From Thermostichus vulcanus str. 'Rupite' (lineage in GTDB: Bacteria; Cyanobacteriota; Cyanobacteriia; Thermostichales; Thermostichaceae): a stretch of DNA of 59,890 nucleotides. The stretch is from contig NZ_JAFIRA010000019.1 of NCBI RefSeq assembly GCF_022848905.1, forward strand, positions 1 through 59,890, in the 5' to 3' direction. The notes under the pieces were generated by a model that saw only the letters and a program-made list of their open reading frames with translations, did no database searches and was not told the DNA's origin. The translations under genes and the position numbers were made by a program. Of the stretch, positions 50,009 to 59,890 are shown piece after piece (position 1 is the first letter of the stretch; each line of letters starts with the position of its first letter).

Positions 50009-53000
50009 GTTTCCATTAATTCCACTTCCCCGAAGAGAAGCGAGCCGAGTGGTATTTTGCTCCCCGACCAGCGGTGGAACGTTTCCATTAATTCCACTTC
50101 CCCGAAGAGAAGCGAGGTCCAGTGGGTGGTAACCTTCGCAAAGGTTACTAACCTAATTGTTTCCATTAATTCCACTTCCCCGAAGAGAAGCGAGCCGATC
50201 CCAGAGGAGGAGATTGTGGCGGCCTATTAGTTTCCATTAATTCCACTTCCCCGAAGAGAAGCGAGTCCAGAAGCGTTTCCCCACCATCCCCGAAGCCCAG
50301 GTTTCCATTAATTCCACTTCCCCGAAGAGAAGCGAGTAGGGCGGAAGATCGTCCCACCACTAGGGCAATTAGTTTCCATTAATTCCACTTCCCCGAAGAG
50401 AAGCGAGAGCTTGCGATTTTGCGCTTGACGGATGCTGGCAGAATGTTTCCATTAATTCCACTTCCCCGAAGAGAAGCGAGTAGGGCGGAAGATCGTCCCA
50501 CCACTAGGGCAATTAGTTTCCATTAATTCCACTTCCCCGAAGAGAAGCGAGAGAAAGGCTGTAGGGAAAGACGGTTCCGTCGCAGGTTGTTTCCATTAAT
50601 TCCACTTCCCCGAAGAGAAGCGAGTAACTTGCCGTGTGACGAGGCTAGCCAGAAGTTGTGTTTCCATTAATTCCACTTCCCCGAAGAGAAGCGAGTACGA
50701 AACAGAATGTGTCCCCTACGGTAGGGGGTATATATGTTTCCATTAATTCCACTTCCCCGAAGAGAAGCGAGGAAAATCACTGGCCCTGACCATACCCAAT
50801 GGATTGGTTTCCATTAATTCCACTTCCCCGAAGAGAAGCGAGATGGTACGGTTAGCCGTAGCGGTCAACCCCTCCTCAGTGGTTTCCATTAATTCCACTT
50901 CCCCGAAGAGAAGCGAGCAGTCAGGAAGCACTTGCCACCTGTAGCAGCAACTTGTTGGGGTTTCCATTAATTCCACTTCCCCGAAGAGAAGCGAGGCGCG
51001 TGAAGCGGTTTCAAGAGCGTTTTCCGAACGCAGTTTCCATTAATTCCACTTCCCCGAAGAGAAGCGAGCGTGTACGTGGTGCATAAAAAAACCCTGCCGT
51101 GGGGGTTTCCATTAATTCCACTTCCCCGAAGAGAAGCGAGGATTTTGAGCTTTTGTGTTCACGGCTTGATAGGTTGCTGTTTCCATTAATTCCACTTCCC
51201 CGAAGAGAAGCGAGTCGCCCAGCTTAAGCCCCTCACCGCTCTCGTTCGTGTTTCCATTAATTCCACTTCCCCGAAGAGAAGCGAGTCATTGAGCAAAAGT
51301 GTAGTCGACAAATTCTCACTCACAGTTTCCATTAATTCCACTTCCCCGAAGAGAAGCGAGTTCCCCTTTAGCAGTTATGGACAGCTACAGGAAAAACTGT
51401 TTCCATTAATTCCACTTCCCCGAAGAGAAGCGAGCGGATCACTCAGGCAAGATTAGTGCCTATTCTAGGCGTTTCCATTAATTCCACTTCCCCGAAGAGA
51501 AGCGAGAAACTCAATTGTTTTATTTTCGGGCAGCGAAGATTGTAGTTTCCATTAATTCCACTTCCCCGAAGAGAAGCGAGCTTGTGTGCTGTGGCGCCAG
51601 TGGATCATGGCCGAATAGGTTTCCATTAATTCCACTTCCCCGAAGAGAAGCGAGAGGCTAAACAAGCTCTGCTCCAAATTCGCCAGAAGAAAAGTTTCCA
51701 TTAATTCCACTTCCCCGAAGAGAAGCGAGACGGGACGGAAAGTTGTCGACCCTTTGGGCCAACTGTGTTTCCATTAATTCCACTTCCCCGAAGAGAAGCG
51801 AGTTCGCGCAAGCGGAGAAAAAGCGCAGAGACGGCTCAGGTTTCCATTAATTCCACTTCCCCGAAGAGAAGCGAGGGCAGCCATTAAGTACTGGGGTAGC
51901 ATGGAACTAATCGTTTCCATTAATTCCACTTCCCCGAAGAGAAGCGAGCAAAGCGCTTTCAAAAGCGCTTTAATTCAGCAGACGAGTTTCCATTAATTCC
52001 ACTTCCCCGAAGAGAAGCGAGTTTATACTTACCGGATGATACCGGATGGATATGTTTACCGTTTCCATTAATTCCACTTCCCCGAAGAGAAGCGAGCAAC
52101 AATGGACAGCCGACTTTATTCAGGAGTGCAAAGTTTCCATTAATTCCACTTCCCCGAAGAGAAGCGAGGGCGAGTTTGCCCCCAGCCCGCGTAATCGAGT
52201 ACCACGTTTCCATTAATTCCACTTCCCCGAAGAGAAGCGAGAAGCCGAACGGAAACGAGCCAAGTTCAACAAAAAAGGTTTCCATTAATTCCACTTCCCC
52301 GAAGAGAAGCGAGGCCAACATTGAGACTTGCCTTCCCGCAGAAGGCAGCTGTTTCCATTAATTCCACTTCCCCGAAGAGAAGCGAGTAGAAAACTCGCTT
52401 CCACCAAGCCAAGTAATTGAGTTTGTTTCCATTAATTCCACTTCCCCGAAGAGAAGCGAGGGGTTAGAGGCGAGTTTGCCTCCAGCCCGAACAATGTTTC
52501 CATTAATTCCACTTCCCCGAAGAGAAGCGAGTTCGGACGGGACGAAAGATCGTCCCGCCTCTAGGGCGTTTCCATTAATTCCACTTCCCCGAAGAGAAGC
52601 GAGGGCACTGCCAGCCCACGGTTATTATAATGAACTCCATTTTCCATTAATTCCACTTCCCCGAAGAGAAGCGAGAACAGGAAAGAGAGAGGAGCCACTG
52701 GGCATCCTGTATTTTCCATTAATTCCACTTCCCCGAAGAGAAGCGAGATTCTCTTCTCTAGTCACACGCTCCCTTAATCACTTAAGATTTTCCATTAATT
52801 CCACTTCCCCGAAGAGAAGCGAGAAGAGGCACTCCAGTGGACAAACAATTTTATTCAATTTTCCATTAATTCCACTTCCCCGAAGAGAAGCGAGAAGGAA
52901 ATATCGTTCTATCTCGGAGCTTCCCAGCTCACATTTTCCATTAATTCCACTTCCCCGAAGAGAAGCGAGCACAAATTAAATCCAGTAGAGCCATTTTGAC

Positions 53001-56000
53001 CCTACGTTTTTCCATTAATTCCACTTCCCCGAAGAGAAGCGAGCAGGCAGCCTTGCCCGCACCTAAGACGATCGAGTATCTTTTCCATTAATTCCACTTC
53101 CCCGAAGAGAAGCGAGAAGGTTAATCGGATTACCTTCCGGTGATACCAATAAATAGCGTTTTCCATTAATTCCACTTCCCCGAAGAGAAGCGAGAGAGCA
53201 TCTAAAGCTCTACATTCGCTCCATATCGATTTTCCATTAATTCCACTTCCCCGAAGAGAAGCGAGTGGACGCAACGAGACGCCTCTAGGTACCCTGTGCG
53301 TTTTCCATTAATTCCACTTCCCCGAAGAGAAGCGAGGTTTGAGCTACTGTCACCATTGGAGCTACCGGACCTGTCTTTTCCATTAATTCCACTTCCCCGA
53401 AGAGAAGCGAGTCTGTCTAAAGCCAAAGACTTCTTAGACAAGGGGCTGTTGTCACTTTTCCATTAATTCCACTTCCCCGAAGAGAAGCGAGGGCAAGAGA
53501 AAAAAGCCCTTATTTCGTCTTTGCCCGTTTTCCATTAATTCCACTTCCCCGAAGAGAAGCGAGTATTCTGAGCTGCAAGACTGCATCCGTGCAGGCAATT
53601 TTCCATTAATTCCACTTCCCCGAAGAGAAGCGAGCCACCTAACCCTGCTTCACAGCAGGGTTTTTTTATGTTTCCATTAATTCCACTTCCCCGAAGAGAA
53701 GCGAGCCCGGACTTGCGCCACTAGCCGTATTAGTACTGGTAATAGTTTCCATTAATTCCACTTCCCCGAAGAGAAGCGAGGAGAGAGAAATGGCTATAAC
53801 CACAACGCAGGAAGTAATGTTTCCATTAATTCCACTTCCCCGAAGAGAAGCGAGTAAGACGATTGAAGTGCACCTTGACTAACACCAACTGTTTCCATTA
53901 ATTCCACTTCCCCGAAGAGAAGCGAGGGACGAAGAAGAGTTCTACCAGTGGCTCAAACAACAAGTTTCCATTAATTCCACTTCCCCGAAGAGAAGCGAGC
54001 CTACGACAATCAAAGTATTCTATCAGCACTTGGTATAGAGTTTCCATTAATTCCACTTCCCCGAAGAGAAGCGAGATGTCATCGTGATCTAACCTAATCA
54101 TGTCCCTACCCCGTGGTTTCCATTAATTCCACTTCCCCGAAGAGAAGCGAGCCTGAAGGAGAATGAAGATGGCAGTAGTGAAGCTAAATTGTTTCCATTA
54201 ATTCCACTTCCCCGAAGAGAAGCGAGAAGTGACACAGTCGTTGTAGCATTACCAGGGCTAGCTCCCGTTTCCATTAATTCCACTTCCCCGAAGAGAAGCG
54301 AGAGGATTGATCACGCTCTCCCTTAGTAGAGGAGAAAAAGGTTTCCATTAATTCCACTTCCCCGAAGAGAAGCGAGTTGGGGTAGAGATGCCTGTAAGTC
54401 GCGCTTTTCTTGCCTGTTTCCATTAATTCCACTTCCCCGAAGAGAAGCGAGACGGGTTGGTAATTTGGATCAGCGAAACAAGCGGAATTGTTTCCATTAA
54501 TTCCACTTCCCCGAAGAGAAGCGAGGAAAAGTGGCGGGTTGGACTTTGGCGGTTGTCAAGTTTCCATTAATTCCACTTCCCCGAAGAGAAGCGAGTGGCA
54601 CTCATTCTTGGGATACCAAAGAAAAGCTAAGGTTTCCATTAATTCCACTTCCCCGAAGAGAAGCGAGCAGAGAGTGCGCCAAGAGAAGCGAGCACTTAGC
54701 GAGGTTTCCATTAATTCCACTTCCCCGAAGAGAAGCGAGCAGATTTTGTCGAACAGGCGAAGTCCGCCTTGCTGTGTTTCCATTAATTCCACTTCCCCGA
54801 AGAGAAGCGAGGCAAGAGCAGTTCGAGCTAGGTCTGGAGGAAGTGTGGTGAAGGGTTTCCATTAATTCCACTTCCCCGAAGAGAAGCGAGCACGTAACTC
54901 ACTTTGCAGGTCTTAATTGGGAGATCCGTTTCCATTAATTCCACTTCCCCGAAGAGAAGCGAGGAGGCCAAGACCTGGGCCGAAGGTTTCATCTCTGAGT
55001 TTCCATTAATTCCACTTCCCCGAAGAGAAGCGAGTAGCAGCCTTAGAGCAAGCAGAGGACGATTACTTCAGTTTCCATTAATTCCACTTCCCCGAAGAGA
55101 AGCGAGCCGTACCTGGCACGTTCGAACCGCTACCGACTTGGTACGTTTCCATTAATTCCACTTCCCCGAAGAGAAGCGAGTGTCCTTATATCTTTGGAGA
55201 GGACTTATCCCCAACATGGGGTTTCCATTAATTCCACTTCCCCGAAGAGAAGCGAGATTAATAAACAGTTCAAGAACCCCATTCCAGCTATGGTAGTTTC
55301 CATTAATTCCACTTCCCCGAAGAGAAGCGAGTACTGGGGGGACGAAGACGAAGAGAACGGTTATCGCGTTTCCATTAATTCCACTTCCCCGAAGAGAAGC
55401 GAGCACTCCCACCAGGGCAGGTAATTGAGTTTCATTTTGGTTTCCATTAATTCCACTTCCCCGAAGAGAAGCGAGGCTGTGCAGGCAAACCGCCTTAGCG
55501 GCACTCGAAGTTTCCATTAATTCCACTTCCCCGAAGAGAAGCGAGAAGATCAAAAAGCAAGATATCAAGATCAAGAAGCAAAAGTTTCCATTAATTCCAC
55601 TTCCCCGAAGAGAAGCGAGGCTACCATGTAGAGGAGCTGAGTGTGATCGCTGAAGTTGTTTCCATTAATTCCACTTCCCCGAAGAGAAGCGAGAAATCTA
55701 TCTGGACATCAAAACGATCAGTTGGACGCTGTTTCCATTAATTCCACTTCCCCGAAGAGAAGCGAGAAAAATAAAAACCCCATAGGATTTAATCCCTATG
55801 GGGGTTGTTTCCATTAATTCCACTTCCCCGAAGAGAAGCGAGCGGATCGAATGTAGCATGGCATGTGTGTGGAGCTCAGTCTGTTTCCATTAATTCCACT
55901 TCCCCGAAGAGAAGCGAGACCGGAAGACGAGCTAGAGCGTAGAGCATCAAGGGTTTCCATTAATTCCACTTCCCCGAAGAGAAGCGAGTGGTTAAAGAAG

Positions 56001-59000
56001 TGTCGGCCGCTCTGCCGTGGCGTAATAAGCGGGTTTCCATTAATTCCACTTCCCCGAAGAGAAGCGAGAGGTTACAGCGGCCCCGAGAAGTTGGGTCAGG
56101 GAGGTTTCCATTAATTCCACTTCCCCGAAGAGAAGCGAGCTATTGGGGGGAATCATCGGATCGGGAAGGTTACCGGTTTCCATTAATTCCACTTCCCCGA
56201 AGAGAAGCGAGTTTTCCTCATTTCAGTAACGAAGTCCTTGCAGAGCTAAGTTTCCATTAATTCCACTTCCCCGAAGAGAAGCGAGAATCTACAAATACGC
56301 TAAGGATCTCTTCCCAGTTGTGGGTTTCCATTAATTCCACTTCCCCGAAGAGAAGCGAGTACCGAGTATCAGAGTCAATACGAAGAGTGGCGAGTGTTTC
56401 CATTAATTCCACTTCCCCGAAGAGAAGCGAGGAGAATCCATTCTCGGTCTCCGTGTTCAGATCGTTGATCAGTTTCCATTAATTCCACTTCCCCGAAGAG
56501 AAGCGAGAAGTAAAAGCCAAAAATACCGGAAGCTTTCTCTTCATCTGTTTCCATTAATTCCACTTCCCCGAAGAGAAGCGAGTGCACAAGGTTTCACTGA
56601 TTTATTCTGCTTATCGCTGTTTCCATTAATTCCACTTCCCCGAAGAGAAGCGAGGAGAGAGTGGACATGTCATGTGCCTTGCGCTCCAGAGTTTCCATTA
56701 ATTCCACTTCCCCGAAGAGAAGCGAGTAATATAGTTTACCCATACTATCAGACTTGATTGCCATCTTGGAGTTTCCATTAATTCCACTTCCCCGAAGAGA
56801 AGCGAGCGCGCTTTTAACGTGTTTAGTCACGGCTGTGGATTTCGTTTCCATTAATTCCACTTCCCCGAAGAGAAGCGAGTCTTTGTGAAATGGAAGTTCT
56901 CGCACAAGTTACAGTGTTTCCATTAATTCCACTTCCCCGAAGAGAAGCGAGCTCAAGAAATTGAGCATATAACACAGGCACGCTTGGTTTCCATTAATTC
57001 CACTTCCCCGAAGAGAAGCGAGCTGGACGCGCTAGACATCGTGGCGCAGGTCAAGGTCGTTTCCATTAATTCCACTTCCCCGAAGAGAAGCGAGCACTTC
57101 TGAGCCTTCGGAGAGACAAAAAAGCCCTCGAAGGTTTCCATTAATTCCACTTCCCCGAAGAGAAGCGAGAGAGACAAAAAAGCCCTCGAAGATTCGATTC
57201 CTGAGTGTTTCCATTAATTCCACTTCCCCGAAGAGAAGCGAGCCGGCCGATCGCGGTTTTGTCGGAGCGTGGGAATCTTTCCAGCGGGAAGTTTCCATTA
57301 ATTCCACTTCCCCGAAGAGAAGCGAGTATTATTCAGAGCTGCTCCCGGACATCCAAACCGGGTTTCCATTAATTCCACTTCCCCGAAGAGAAGCGAGTGA
57401 CTATTCCCTATCCTCCCTGGAAGTTAGGGAATTGTTGTTTCCATTAATTCCACTTCCCCGAAGAGAAGCGAGAGGTACGTGAAGTTTACGCAACCTTGGG
57501 TTGGCCCCCAAGTTTCCATTAATTCCACTTCCCCGAAGAGAAGCGAGTATGTGCGGAGACAGTTGCCTGGGGATAACCCCGGTTTCCATTAATTCCACTT
57601 CCCCGAAGAGAAGCGAGTTTGTGATCTATTAAAGCTATTTGAGAAAGTTTAGTAGAGTTTCCATTAATTCCACTTCCCCGAAGAGAAGCGAGTGAGACAT
57701 GGCGTCAACCGGCTGGCAGAAAGTGCAAAGTCGTTTCCATTAATTCCACTTCCCCGAAGAGAAGCGAGCTGGATTGGTTGATACTTCGCTCTCAAGTTGA
57801 CCCGCAAGTTTCCATTAATTCCACTTCCCCGAAGAGAAGCGAGAGGCGGCTTGTGGTGGCGCATAGAGCGTCCAATCTAGTTTCCATTAATTCCACTTCC
57901 CCGAAGAGAAGCGAGCGGGCGGAGAGTGACCGCACAATCCCTGCCCTTCTAGTTTCCATTAATTCCACTTCCCCGAAGAGAAGCGAGTTGGGTGCTTACT
58001 CTACTGTTGTCGGTTTGCTACAAGGTTTCCATTAATTCCACTTCCCCGAAGAGAAGCGAGTTATGGCTTCCAAAGCCTTGCACATGCTTCATATCGTTTC
58101 CATTAATTCCACTTCCCCGAAGAGAAGCGAGTTTAATAACAAATACCTACTTGTCTCTCAGTTGCCTGAGTTTCCATTAATTCCACTTCCCCGAAGAGAA
58201 GCGAGGCTTCACTTAAGCTTGATACGGGCTTAAGCGAAGTGTTTCCATTAATTCCACTTCCCCGAAGAGAAGCGAGGCGGCCAAGGTTGCCAAAGCGGGG
58301 CTGAATGCCCCGCTGGAGTTTCCATTAATTCCACTTCCCCGAAGAGAAGCGAGATAAACCGTATTTAATATATACCTAATCAAATCCCTTAAAGTGTTTC
58401 CATTAATTCCACTTCCCCGAAGAGAAGCGAGCCAAGTAAACAACCCAACGAGAACCGTAACACGGAACGAGAAGTTTCCATTAATTCCACTTCCCCGAAG
58501 AGAAGCGAGGCTCGAATAAGTATAGGCTAGGCTCCCACACGTGGGAGTTTCCATTAATTCCACTTCCCCGAAGAGAAGCGAGAGACTAGAGAGAAGATTC
58601 TCTCTGAACAAGAGGGCAGGGTTTCCATTAATTCCACTTCCCCGAAGAGAAGCGAGAACAGCTTTTACAAGTAATAATGATTGACTTAGATAGTTTCCAT
58701 TAATTCCACTTCCCCGAAGAGAAGCGAGCACTCTGAACTGGAAGACTCTATCCAGACAGGGAGAAGTTTCCATTAATTCCACTTCCCCGAAGAGAAGCGA
58801 GTTAGGTATTAGTCATAATCCAATGGCAAGGATAAATAGTTTCCATTAATTCCACTTCCCCGAAGAGAAGCGAGCGCGAGGGAAAAGGACTACTACTCCG
58901 AGCTGGAGGAGTTTCCATTAATTCCACTTCCCCGAAGAGAAGCGAGTGGCACACTCTGCGACCGGTGGGGTGAAAACTACAGGTTTCCATTAATTCCACT

Positions 59001-59761
59001 TCCCCGAAGAGAAGCGAGAACCAATATAAGCCTGGATCAGGATCTCCTGGAAGAGGTTTCCATTAATTCCACTTCCCCGAAGAGAAGCGAGTTCTCCCTA
59101 AAAACAGCAAAACTACGCTAGCACAACGTTTCCATTAATTCCACTTCCCCGAAGAGAAGCGAGCAAGCATCTGTACGAACTGGTAGTCCAGACCCAGGGC
59201 CATTTTCCATTAATTCCACTTCCCCGAAGAGAAGCGAGTACCTGGAATCGGGTTGTTACCCGCCAAGTTGGTGCATTTTCCATTAATTCCACTTCCCCGA
59301 AGAGAAGCGAGCTAACTGGACTCCGAGAGCAGAAACGTGATCAATAGGAAGTGGTTTTCCATTAATTCCACTTCCCCGAAGAGAAGCGAGGGAGCAGCCT
59401 GGCTGCCTCCACAACCGGTCCTGGATAGGTTTTCCATTAATTCCACTTCCCCGAAGAGAAGCGAGCGCGACCTAAACGGTTTCGGCCCCGACTCATCAGG
59501 CGGGTTTTCCATTAATTCCACTTCCCCGAAGAGAAGCGAGCGGACTCGTTGTCTACCAGCGTACCGAGATGAAACTTTCCATTAATTCCACTTCCCCGAA
59601 GAGAAGCGAGCAACTACTACCGGTTTCAGCGATTCCGGTAGTAGTTCTTTCCATTAATTCCACTTCCCCGAAGAGAAGCGAGAAACTGTCTTGAGCTCCG
59701 CCGAGCGCAAAGCTAGGATCGCCAGCTTTCCATTAATTCCACTTCCCCGAAGAGAAGCGAG
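50009..59761 (-). CRISPR. CRISPR array, 133 repeats and 132 spacers, no cas genes in the window
   Basis: The 36-bp repeat begins GTTTCCATTAATTCC on the plus strand and ends GAAGAGAAGCGAG, with a short CTTC/GAAG stem inside. I counted 133 copies (50009 to 59726) and saw no internal substitution except at the first base: G in copies 1-36 and 51-125, T in 37-50 and 126-130, C in 131-133. Spacers are 34-48 bp. On the minus strand the repeat ends GGAAAC, like the handle end of many cyanobacterial repeats, so I place transcription from right to left with the leader beyond the window. An ISL3 element interrupts the array two bases after copy 133. Confidence 0.98.
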
Positions 59762-59763
59762 AC

Positions 59764-59890
59764 GGCTCTCCTGGACTTATGGTGATCAAGGATTACTAAG
59801 GCCAGAAAGCTGCTAATAATCTGGCTCTGAAGTTAGTAATGTTGGTAAACCCATACCCTTGTCGCTTGATTACCTTGATCCGGTTGTTGA
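59764..59890 (-). mobile_element. ISL3-family insertion sequence, 3' end only (right copy)
   Basis: Reverse complement of positions 1-126 with one extra base at the edge. The IS end (GGCTCT) starts exactly after AC, two bases into what would be spacer 133, so the element was inserted inside the CRISPR array. The rest of the array and any leader should continue on the far side of the element. Confidence 0.85.
59796..59888 (-). CDS. ISL3-family transposase, C-terminal fragment (cut by window end)
   Basis: The same 30 C-terminal codons as at the left end, read on the minus strand into the window and stopping at 59796-59798. Identity with the left copy over all visible bases points to recent transposition or to a shared assembly path. 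Confidence 0.75.
   Translation of the reverse strand, partial: NNRIKVIKRQGYGFTNITNFRARLLAAFWP

Follow-up and report, generated by a model that had tools for sequence, protein, structure and literature searches.

Why do several spacers of one CRISPR array spell out the same short peptide? The window, which is the whole stretch of DNA analysed here (59,890 nt), is one complete contig (C19) of the 3.72 Mb draft genome of Thermostichus vulcanus str. 'Rupite', a cyanobacterium of hot-spring type. It carries a long array in which spacers 5, 7, 24 and 35 encode GRK[IV]V[PD]PLG(QL) on the plus strand; we refer to these as family A. The explanation that we consider probable is that a type III-B array repeatedly acquired spacers at one coding site shared by related phages with diverged codons.

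The array and its family A spacers

The array (Table 1) has regularly spaced, identical repeats and unique spacers of 34 to 48 nt. Of the 133 repeats, 111 begin with G, 19 with T and 3 with C, and this base shifts blockwise along positions 50009-59761 (G ×36, T ×14, G ×75, T ×5, C ×3), hinting at a block insertion or at joined arrays. Allowing up to 3 mismatches, a single copy of the repeat was counted on the reverse strand of the genome. Both contig ends, 1-126 and 59764-59890, match the same repeated element, which accounts for the assembly break at the ends of C19.

Table 1. Position and content of the array, its flanking element and the spacers of families A and B
Feature	Position	Strand	Content
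CRISPR array	50009..59761	-	133 repeats of 36 nt, GTTTCCATTAATTCCACTTCCCCGAAGAGAAGCGAG on +; 132 spacers; minus is the putative crRNA strand
End of repeated element	59764..59890	.	17 matching places in genome; interrupts presumed leader side; contig stops there
Family A, spacer 5	50337..50371	+	xxGRKIVPPLGQL
Family A, spacer 7	50481..50515	+	identical to spacer 5
Family A, spacer 24	51730..51766	+	TGRKVVDPLGQL
Family A, spacer 35	52532..52567	+	RTGRKIVPPLG
Possible distant family A member, spacer 37	52676..52711	+	TGKREEPLGIL; one codon shorter; linked to A by eye
Possible distant family A member, spacer 45	53266..53300	+	GRNETPLGTL; one codon fewer
Family B, spacer 21 (reverse orientation)	51507..51544	-	QSSLPENKTIEF; scores 37 and 34 against spacers 42 and 33
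Family B, spacer 30	52169..52205	+	ASLPPARVIEYH
Family B, spacer 33	52387..52424	+	ENSLPPSQVIEF
Family B, spacer 34	52461..52495	+	LEASLPPARTI
Family B, spacer 42	53044..53080	+	QAALPAPKTIEY
Family B, spacer 74	55404..55439	+	LPPGQVIEFH

A sequence-only reading of this DNA had already singled out the four family A spacers, and its coordinates coincide exactly with spacer boundaries of the array. Spacers 5 and 7 are identical, as it had said, both reading GRKIVPPLGQL, and the array holds 131 unique spacers. The codon changes it had listed, CGG/CGA, CCA/CCG and TTA/CTG, are all present in the family. Its proposal of one common reading frame on the plus strand was borne out when we compared the nine shared codons: differences at codon positions 1, 2 and 3 numbered 0, 0 and 4 between spacers 5 and 35, 3, 1 and 7 between spacers 5 and 24, and 3, 1 and 6 between spacers 24 and 35. 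Most of the differences in the family are thus carried by third codon positions. The protospacer window is, again as claimed, nearly the same each time, the spacers starting 2, 3 and 8 nt ahead of the first G codon and all inside 6 nt. Small shifts of the start (1-6 nt) are accompanied by lengths of 35 to 37 nt, suggesting that the spacers came from separate capture events.

Spacers 37 and 45 are tentatively regarded as distant members of family A. Joining them to it needs a one-codon gap, and at 32 the score between the two is marginal: over all orientations the null yields about 3 pairs that high. An A-B-A pattern, in which identical spacers flank one other, lies near the presumed old end of the array (50337-50515), and a similar pattern was seen in the array of another cyanobacterium, G041 (L048, 13024-13207).

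Spacer families across the array

The array contains about ten spacer families of this kind, and the motif of family A is not special, several of the other families behaving alike. When the 131 unique spacers were compared after translation, 14 pairs scored 36 or more, against a mean of about 0.4 and a maximum of 2 in 60 dinucleotide shuffles of the same spacers; the shuffled sets contained no pair at 46 or more. These counts exclude chance for the array as a whole. Family B, with the motif SLPPxxVIE[YF], is larger than family A and contains one spacer in the reverse orientation. Further pairs are 44/110, 73/84, 14/27, 29/39, 49/119 and 72/86. Targets are also shared with L017 and L018, two other type III arrays of the same genome: spacer 31 shares one with spacer 60 of L017, spacer 113 with spacers 29 and 56 of L018 and spacer 42 of L017, and spacer 52 with spacer 30 of L018.

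Starts are tightly clustered within the families. If 131 unique spacers were drawn at random from 40 kb, three family A starts would fall within 6 nt on one strand with p ~0.005, and five same-strand family B starts would fall within 14 nt with p ~0.0003 even for 10 kb. The clustering may be partly a detection effect, only conserved sites being recognised, and it is compatible with selection on a few transcripts, an intrinsic hot spot or guided re-capture. Two other groups of spacers were observed. The consecutive spacers 97 and 98 (57095-57206) overlap by 22 identical nt at an offset of 17 nt, as if taken together from one phage region. Spacers 77, 94, 95 and 96 (55620-57058), three of them consecutive, look like a family by eye but lie below the score threshold; their peptides are VEELSVIAEV, EMEVLAQV, ALDIVAQV and EIEHITQA.

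Most families also share one orientation. When the three type III arrays were compared at DNA level, pairs with a score of 13 or more numbered 18 in the same and 4 in the opposite orientation, a count that overstates the number of separate events, since pairs within a family are not independent. Of the four in opposite orientation, 15/50 is a hairpin resembling a terminator. The look of an intrinsic terminator, a hairpin with a T or A run, was noted in spacers 50 (53635-53669), 79 (55767-55806) and 15 (51069-51104). A clear ribosome-binding site followed by ATG occurs in spacers C57, B38 and B69 of these three arrays and in T27 of the G041 array, three on the plus and one on the minus strand; two further matches to this pattern look accidental. 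In spacer 57 (54152-54190) the site and ATG lie on the plus strand and open MAVVKLN, and a similar gene start is present in spacer 52 and in spacer 38 of L017. An array-wide stop-codon test gave no significant strand bias: where a single strand was open, the spacers divided 10 to 6 (p = 0.45). Type III systems need an antisense crRNA (PMC5576922), and about 65% of type III spacers favour the coding strand (PMC8482600). The orientation bias is consistent with these published data and is seen here through the families only: their crRNAs would mostly be antisense to mRNA, as in the published preference (PMC8482600), with the direction read from spacer families.

CRISPR type, transcription and target search

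The repeat starts with GTTTCC on the plus strand and ends with GGAAAC on the opposite strand. Arrays L017 and L018 have such GTTTCC repeats on the plus strand and cas1 genes on their right, and in L048 the leader lies between cas1 and the array start. Because of this repeat end, the position of cas genes in L017 and L018 and the leader by cas1 in L048, the crRNA strand is probably the minus strand, and by analogy the array would be transcribed in that direction. Its presumed leader end is cut by the repeated element. No cas gene was found to the left of the array, and neither cas genes nor a leader anywhere in the window. The far side is cut by the repeated element, with which the contig ends.

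The repeat of L048 differs from ours at 2 of 36 nt and adjoins cas1-cas2 and a Cmr type III-B operon. The Cmr2 encoded there shares 58% identity with a Cmr2 fragment on contig C67 and about 33% with the Cmr2 of C2, so the present genome holds cmr genes related to the repeat-matched operon. From the similarity of repeat and Cmr2 to the G041 locus we infer that the array is of type III-B. A search of the assembly for a reverse transcriptase gave no RVT_1 match, and the RNA-capturing type III systems with RT-Cas1 were not indicated.

Searches for the target were negative in every collection used. Viral contigs scanned for the family A pattern and for five further motifs gave no match; these scans were run without a positive control. 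Comparison of array parts with phages and plasmids by blastn returned nothing credible; the plasmid matches had no annotated feature and were rejected, their pieces spreading along the query and looking like other CRISPR repeats. Neither tblastn with two joined peptides nor a search of PHROGs and Pfam using padded peptides gave a match, the latter result being unsurprising at a length of 12 residues. In a translated comparison with cyanophages PP, Pf-WMP3 and CHP58, the spacers scored no higher, or scarcely higher, than they did when reversed. The single match of the family A motif in GTDB genomes is antisense to ligA of Levilactobacillus brevis, and the single one-mismatch match in 388 cyanobacterial genomes is antisense to a larger open frame (a host gene); both were dismissed as chance. 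Thus no protospacer was found in any known phage or plasmid of these collections, a result that is weak evidence, the 12-residue motif being too short for a sensitive protein search. Spacer 132 (59683-59725) has a weak match of 33 nt (88%, E 0.6) to phage MW202713, read on the minus strand and in frame with the gene for the head-to-tail joining protein, which may be chance.

The sequence-only reading had looked to phage proteins, perhaps to a single gene, for the motif and had held that the lack of a phage or plasmid protein with it, or unrelated hits for each spacer, would refute the idea. One family and one protein-coding site are supported; such a protein was not found in viral contigs, phages, plasmids, the 388 cyanobacterial genomes or GTDB genomes. 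By its own rule this counts against the reading, yet the rule is too strict here, because the whole array is without any convincing spacer match and the phages therefore seem to be absent from the collections searched.

Origin of the same-site spacers

Under the explanation that we favour, family A would be the product of several captures, made at different times at one coding site of a single gene; the phages that supplied them would be related and differ mainly by silent codon changes. Transcription of the array from the minus strand would yield crRNAs antisense to phage mRNA, with an expected 5' tag of ATGGAAAC, and a Cmr complex binding the phage transcript would trigger defence. Phage variants with silent changes may then have escaped or weakened an older spacer, and cells with a newly captured version would have been retained. 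Homology, the codon pattern, a common orientation in most families and a nearly identical protospacer position are directly observed. Counted against this explanation is that no protospacer was matched, so the phage, the gene, its flanks and the targeted strand were not seen directly; the result of the stop-codon test, the reverse member of family B and a window devoid of cas genes and leader count against it as well.

One phage could have supplied all versions of family A if they were paralogous internal repeats of a single gene. Internal repetition is suggested for some shared targets, by KPTT repeats in spacers 34 and 36 of L018 and by the KAGLNAPLEAAK region, and the window is compatible with this origin, but the peptides of families A and B show no repeats of their own, and to account for the several unrelated families with the same behaviour one would have to assume many repeat genes; we consider it unlikely. 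Quite unlikely, too, is that mismatch-tolerant crRNAs steer capture back to the site of an escape variant, as a type III counterpart of priming, or that the site is an intrinsic hot spot of capture. The clustering of the five same-strand family B starts fits these ideas, as do the identical spacers 5 and 7 with one spacer between them and a reverse-orientation family B member at the same site. However, conserved sites and slight offsets are the easiest to detect, and spacers would also pile up if selection acted strongly on one transcript that is abundant or essential. The specific version in which older type III crRNAs with imperfect matches guide uptake to the same site of escape variants, re-arming one position per silent change, appears decidedly improbable.

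Duplication inside the array followed by mutation could explain the identical pair 5/7, but neutral decay of a duplicate would not predict the codon-position pattern, the shifted boundaries or the differing lengths; already disfavoured for spacers 5, 24 and 35, it is very improbable as the source of the family. Short peptides often match at low scores (28-30), and chance resemblance among 132 short sequences might be suspected for that reason, but the shuffles refute it at scores of 36 and above, leaving it a negligible likelihood.

Silent change of phages at CRISPR targets has precedents. It is known from Yellowstone relatives (PMC2612747), and in Synechococcus OS-A and OS-B' from Yellowstone spacers target lysozyme/lysin (DUF847, Glyco_hydro_108; Heidelberg 2009 PMC2612747; Davison 2016 PMC5017753). 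Those cyanobacteria probably belong to the same genus, and there too one conserved phage gene is targeted and its variants are silent or conservative; they differ in that one spacer was set against many phage reads, whereas here the variants sit in the array itself. Spacers of Mastigocladus against cyanophage TC-CHP58 (PMC6129581) likewise involve a hot-spring cyanobacterium and synonymous variants under protospacers, but the phage is another one, and our translated comparison with it was not above its null. The present array is a well-supported new example of a known phenomenon, the CRISPR memory of a silently diversifying phage gene, and not a new mechanism. It extends a pattern already described in relatives, and its unusual point is that several versions of the same few sites are kept in one array. 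Phage codon evolution under CRISPR pressure could thus be read from a host genome without the phage in hand, and the array is natural material for asking whether type III same-site resampling arises by selection or by guided capture.

The Cmr type III-B array of G041 is a close counterpart in its repeat and in having a Cmr2 related to that of this genome; there the array, leader and cas genes are adjacent, whereas here the array lies apart from them on its contig. In the present genome cas1 occurs at five loci: with type I-E (C25), type I-C-like (C21) and Cmr type III-B genes (C2 and C67), and on C10, where it lies near a Cas10-type gene and csx3.
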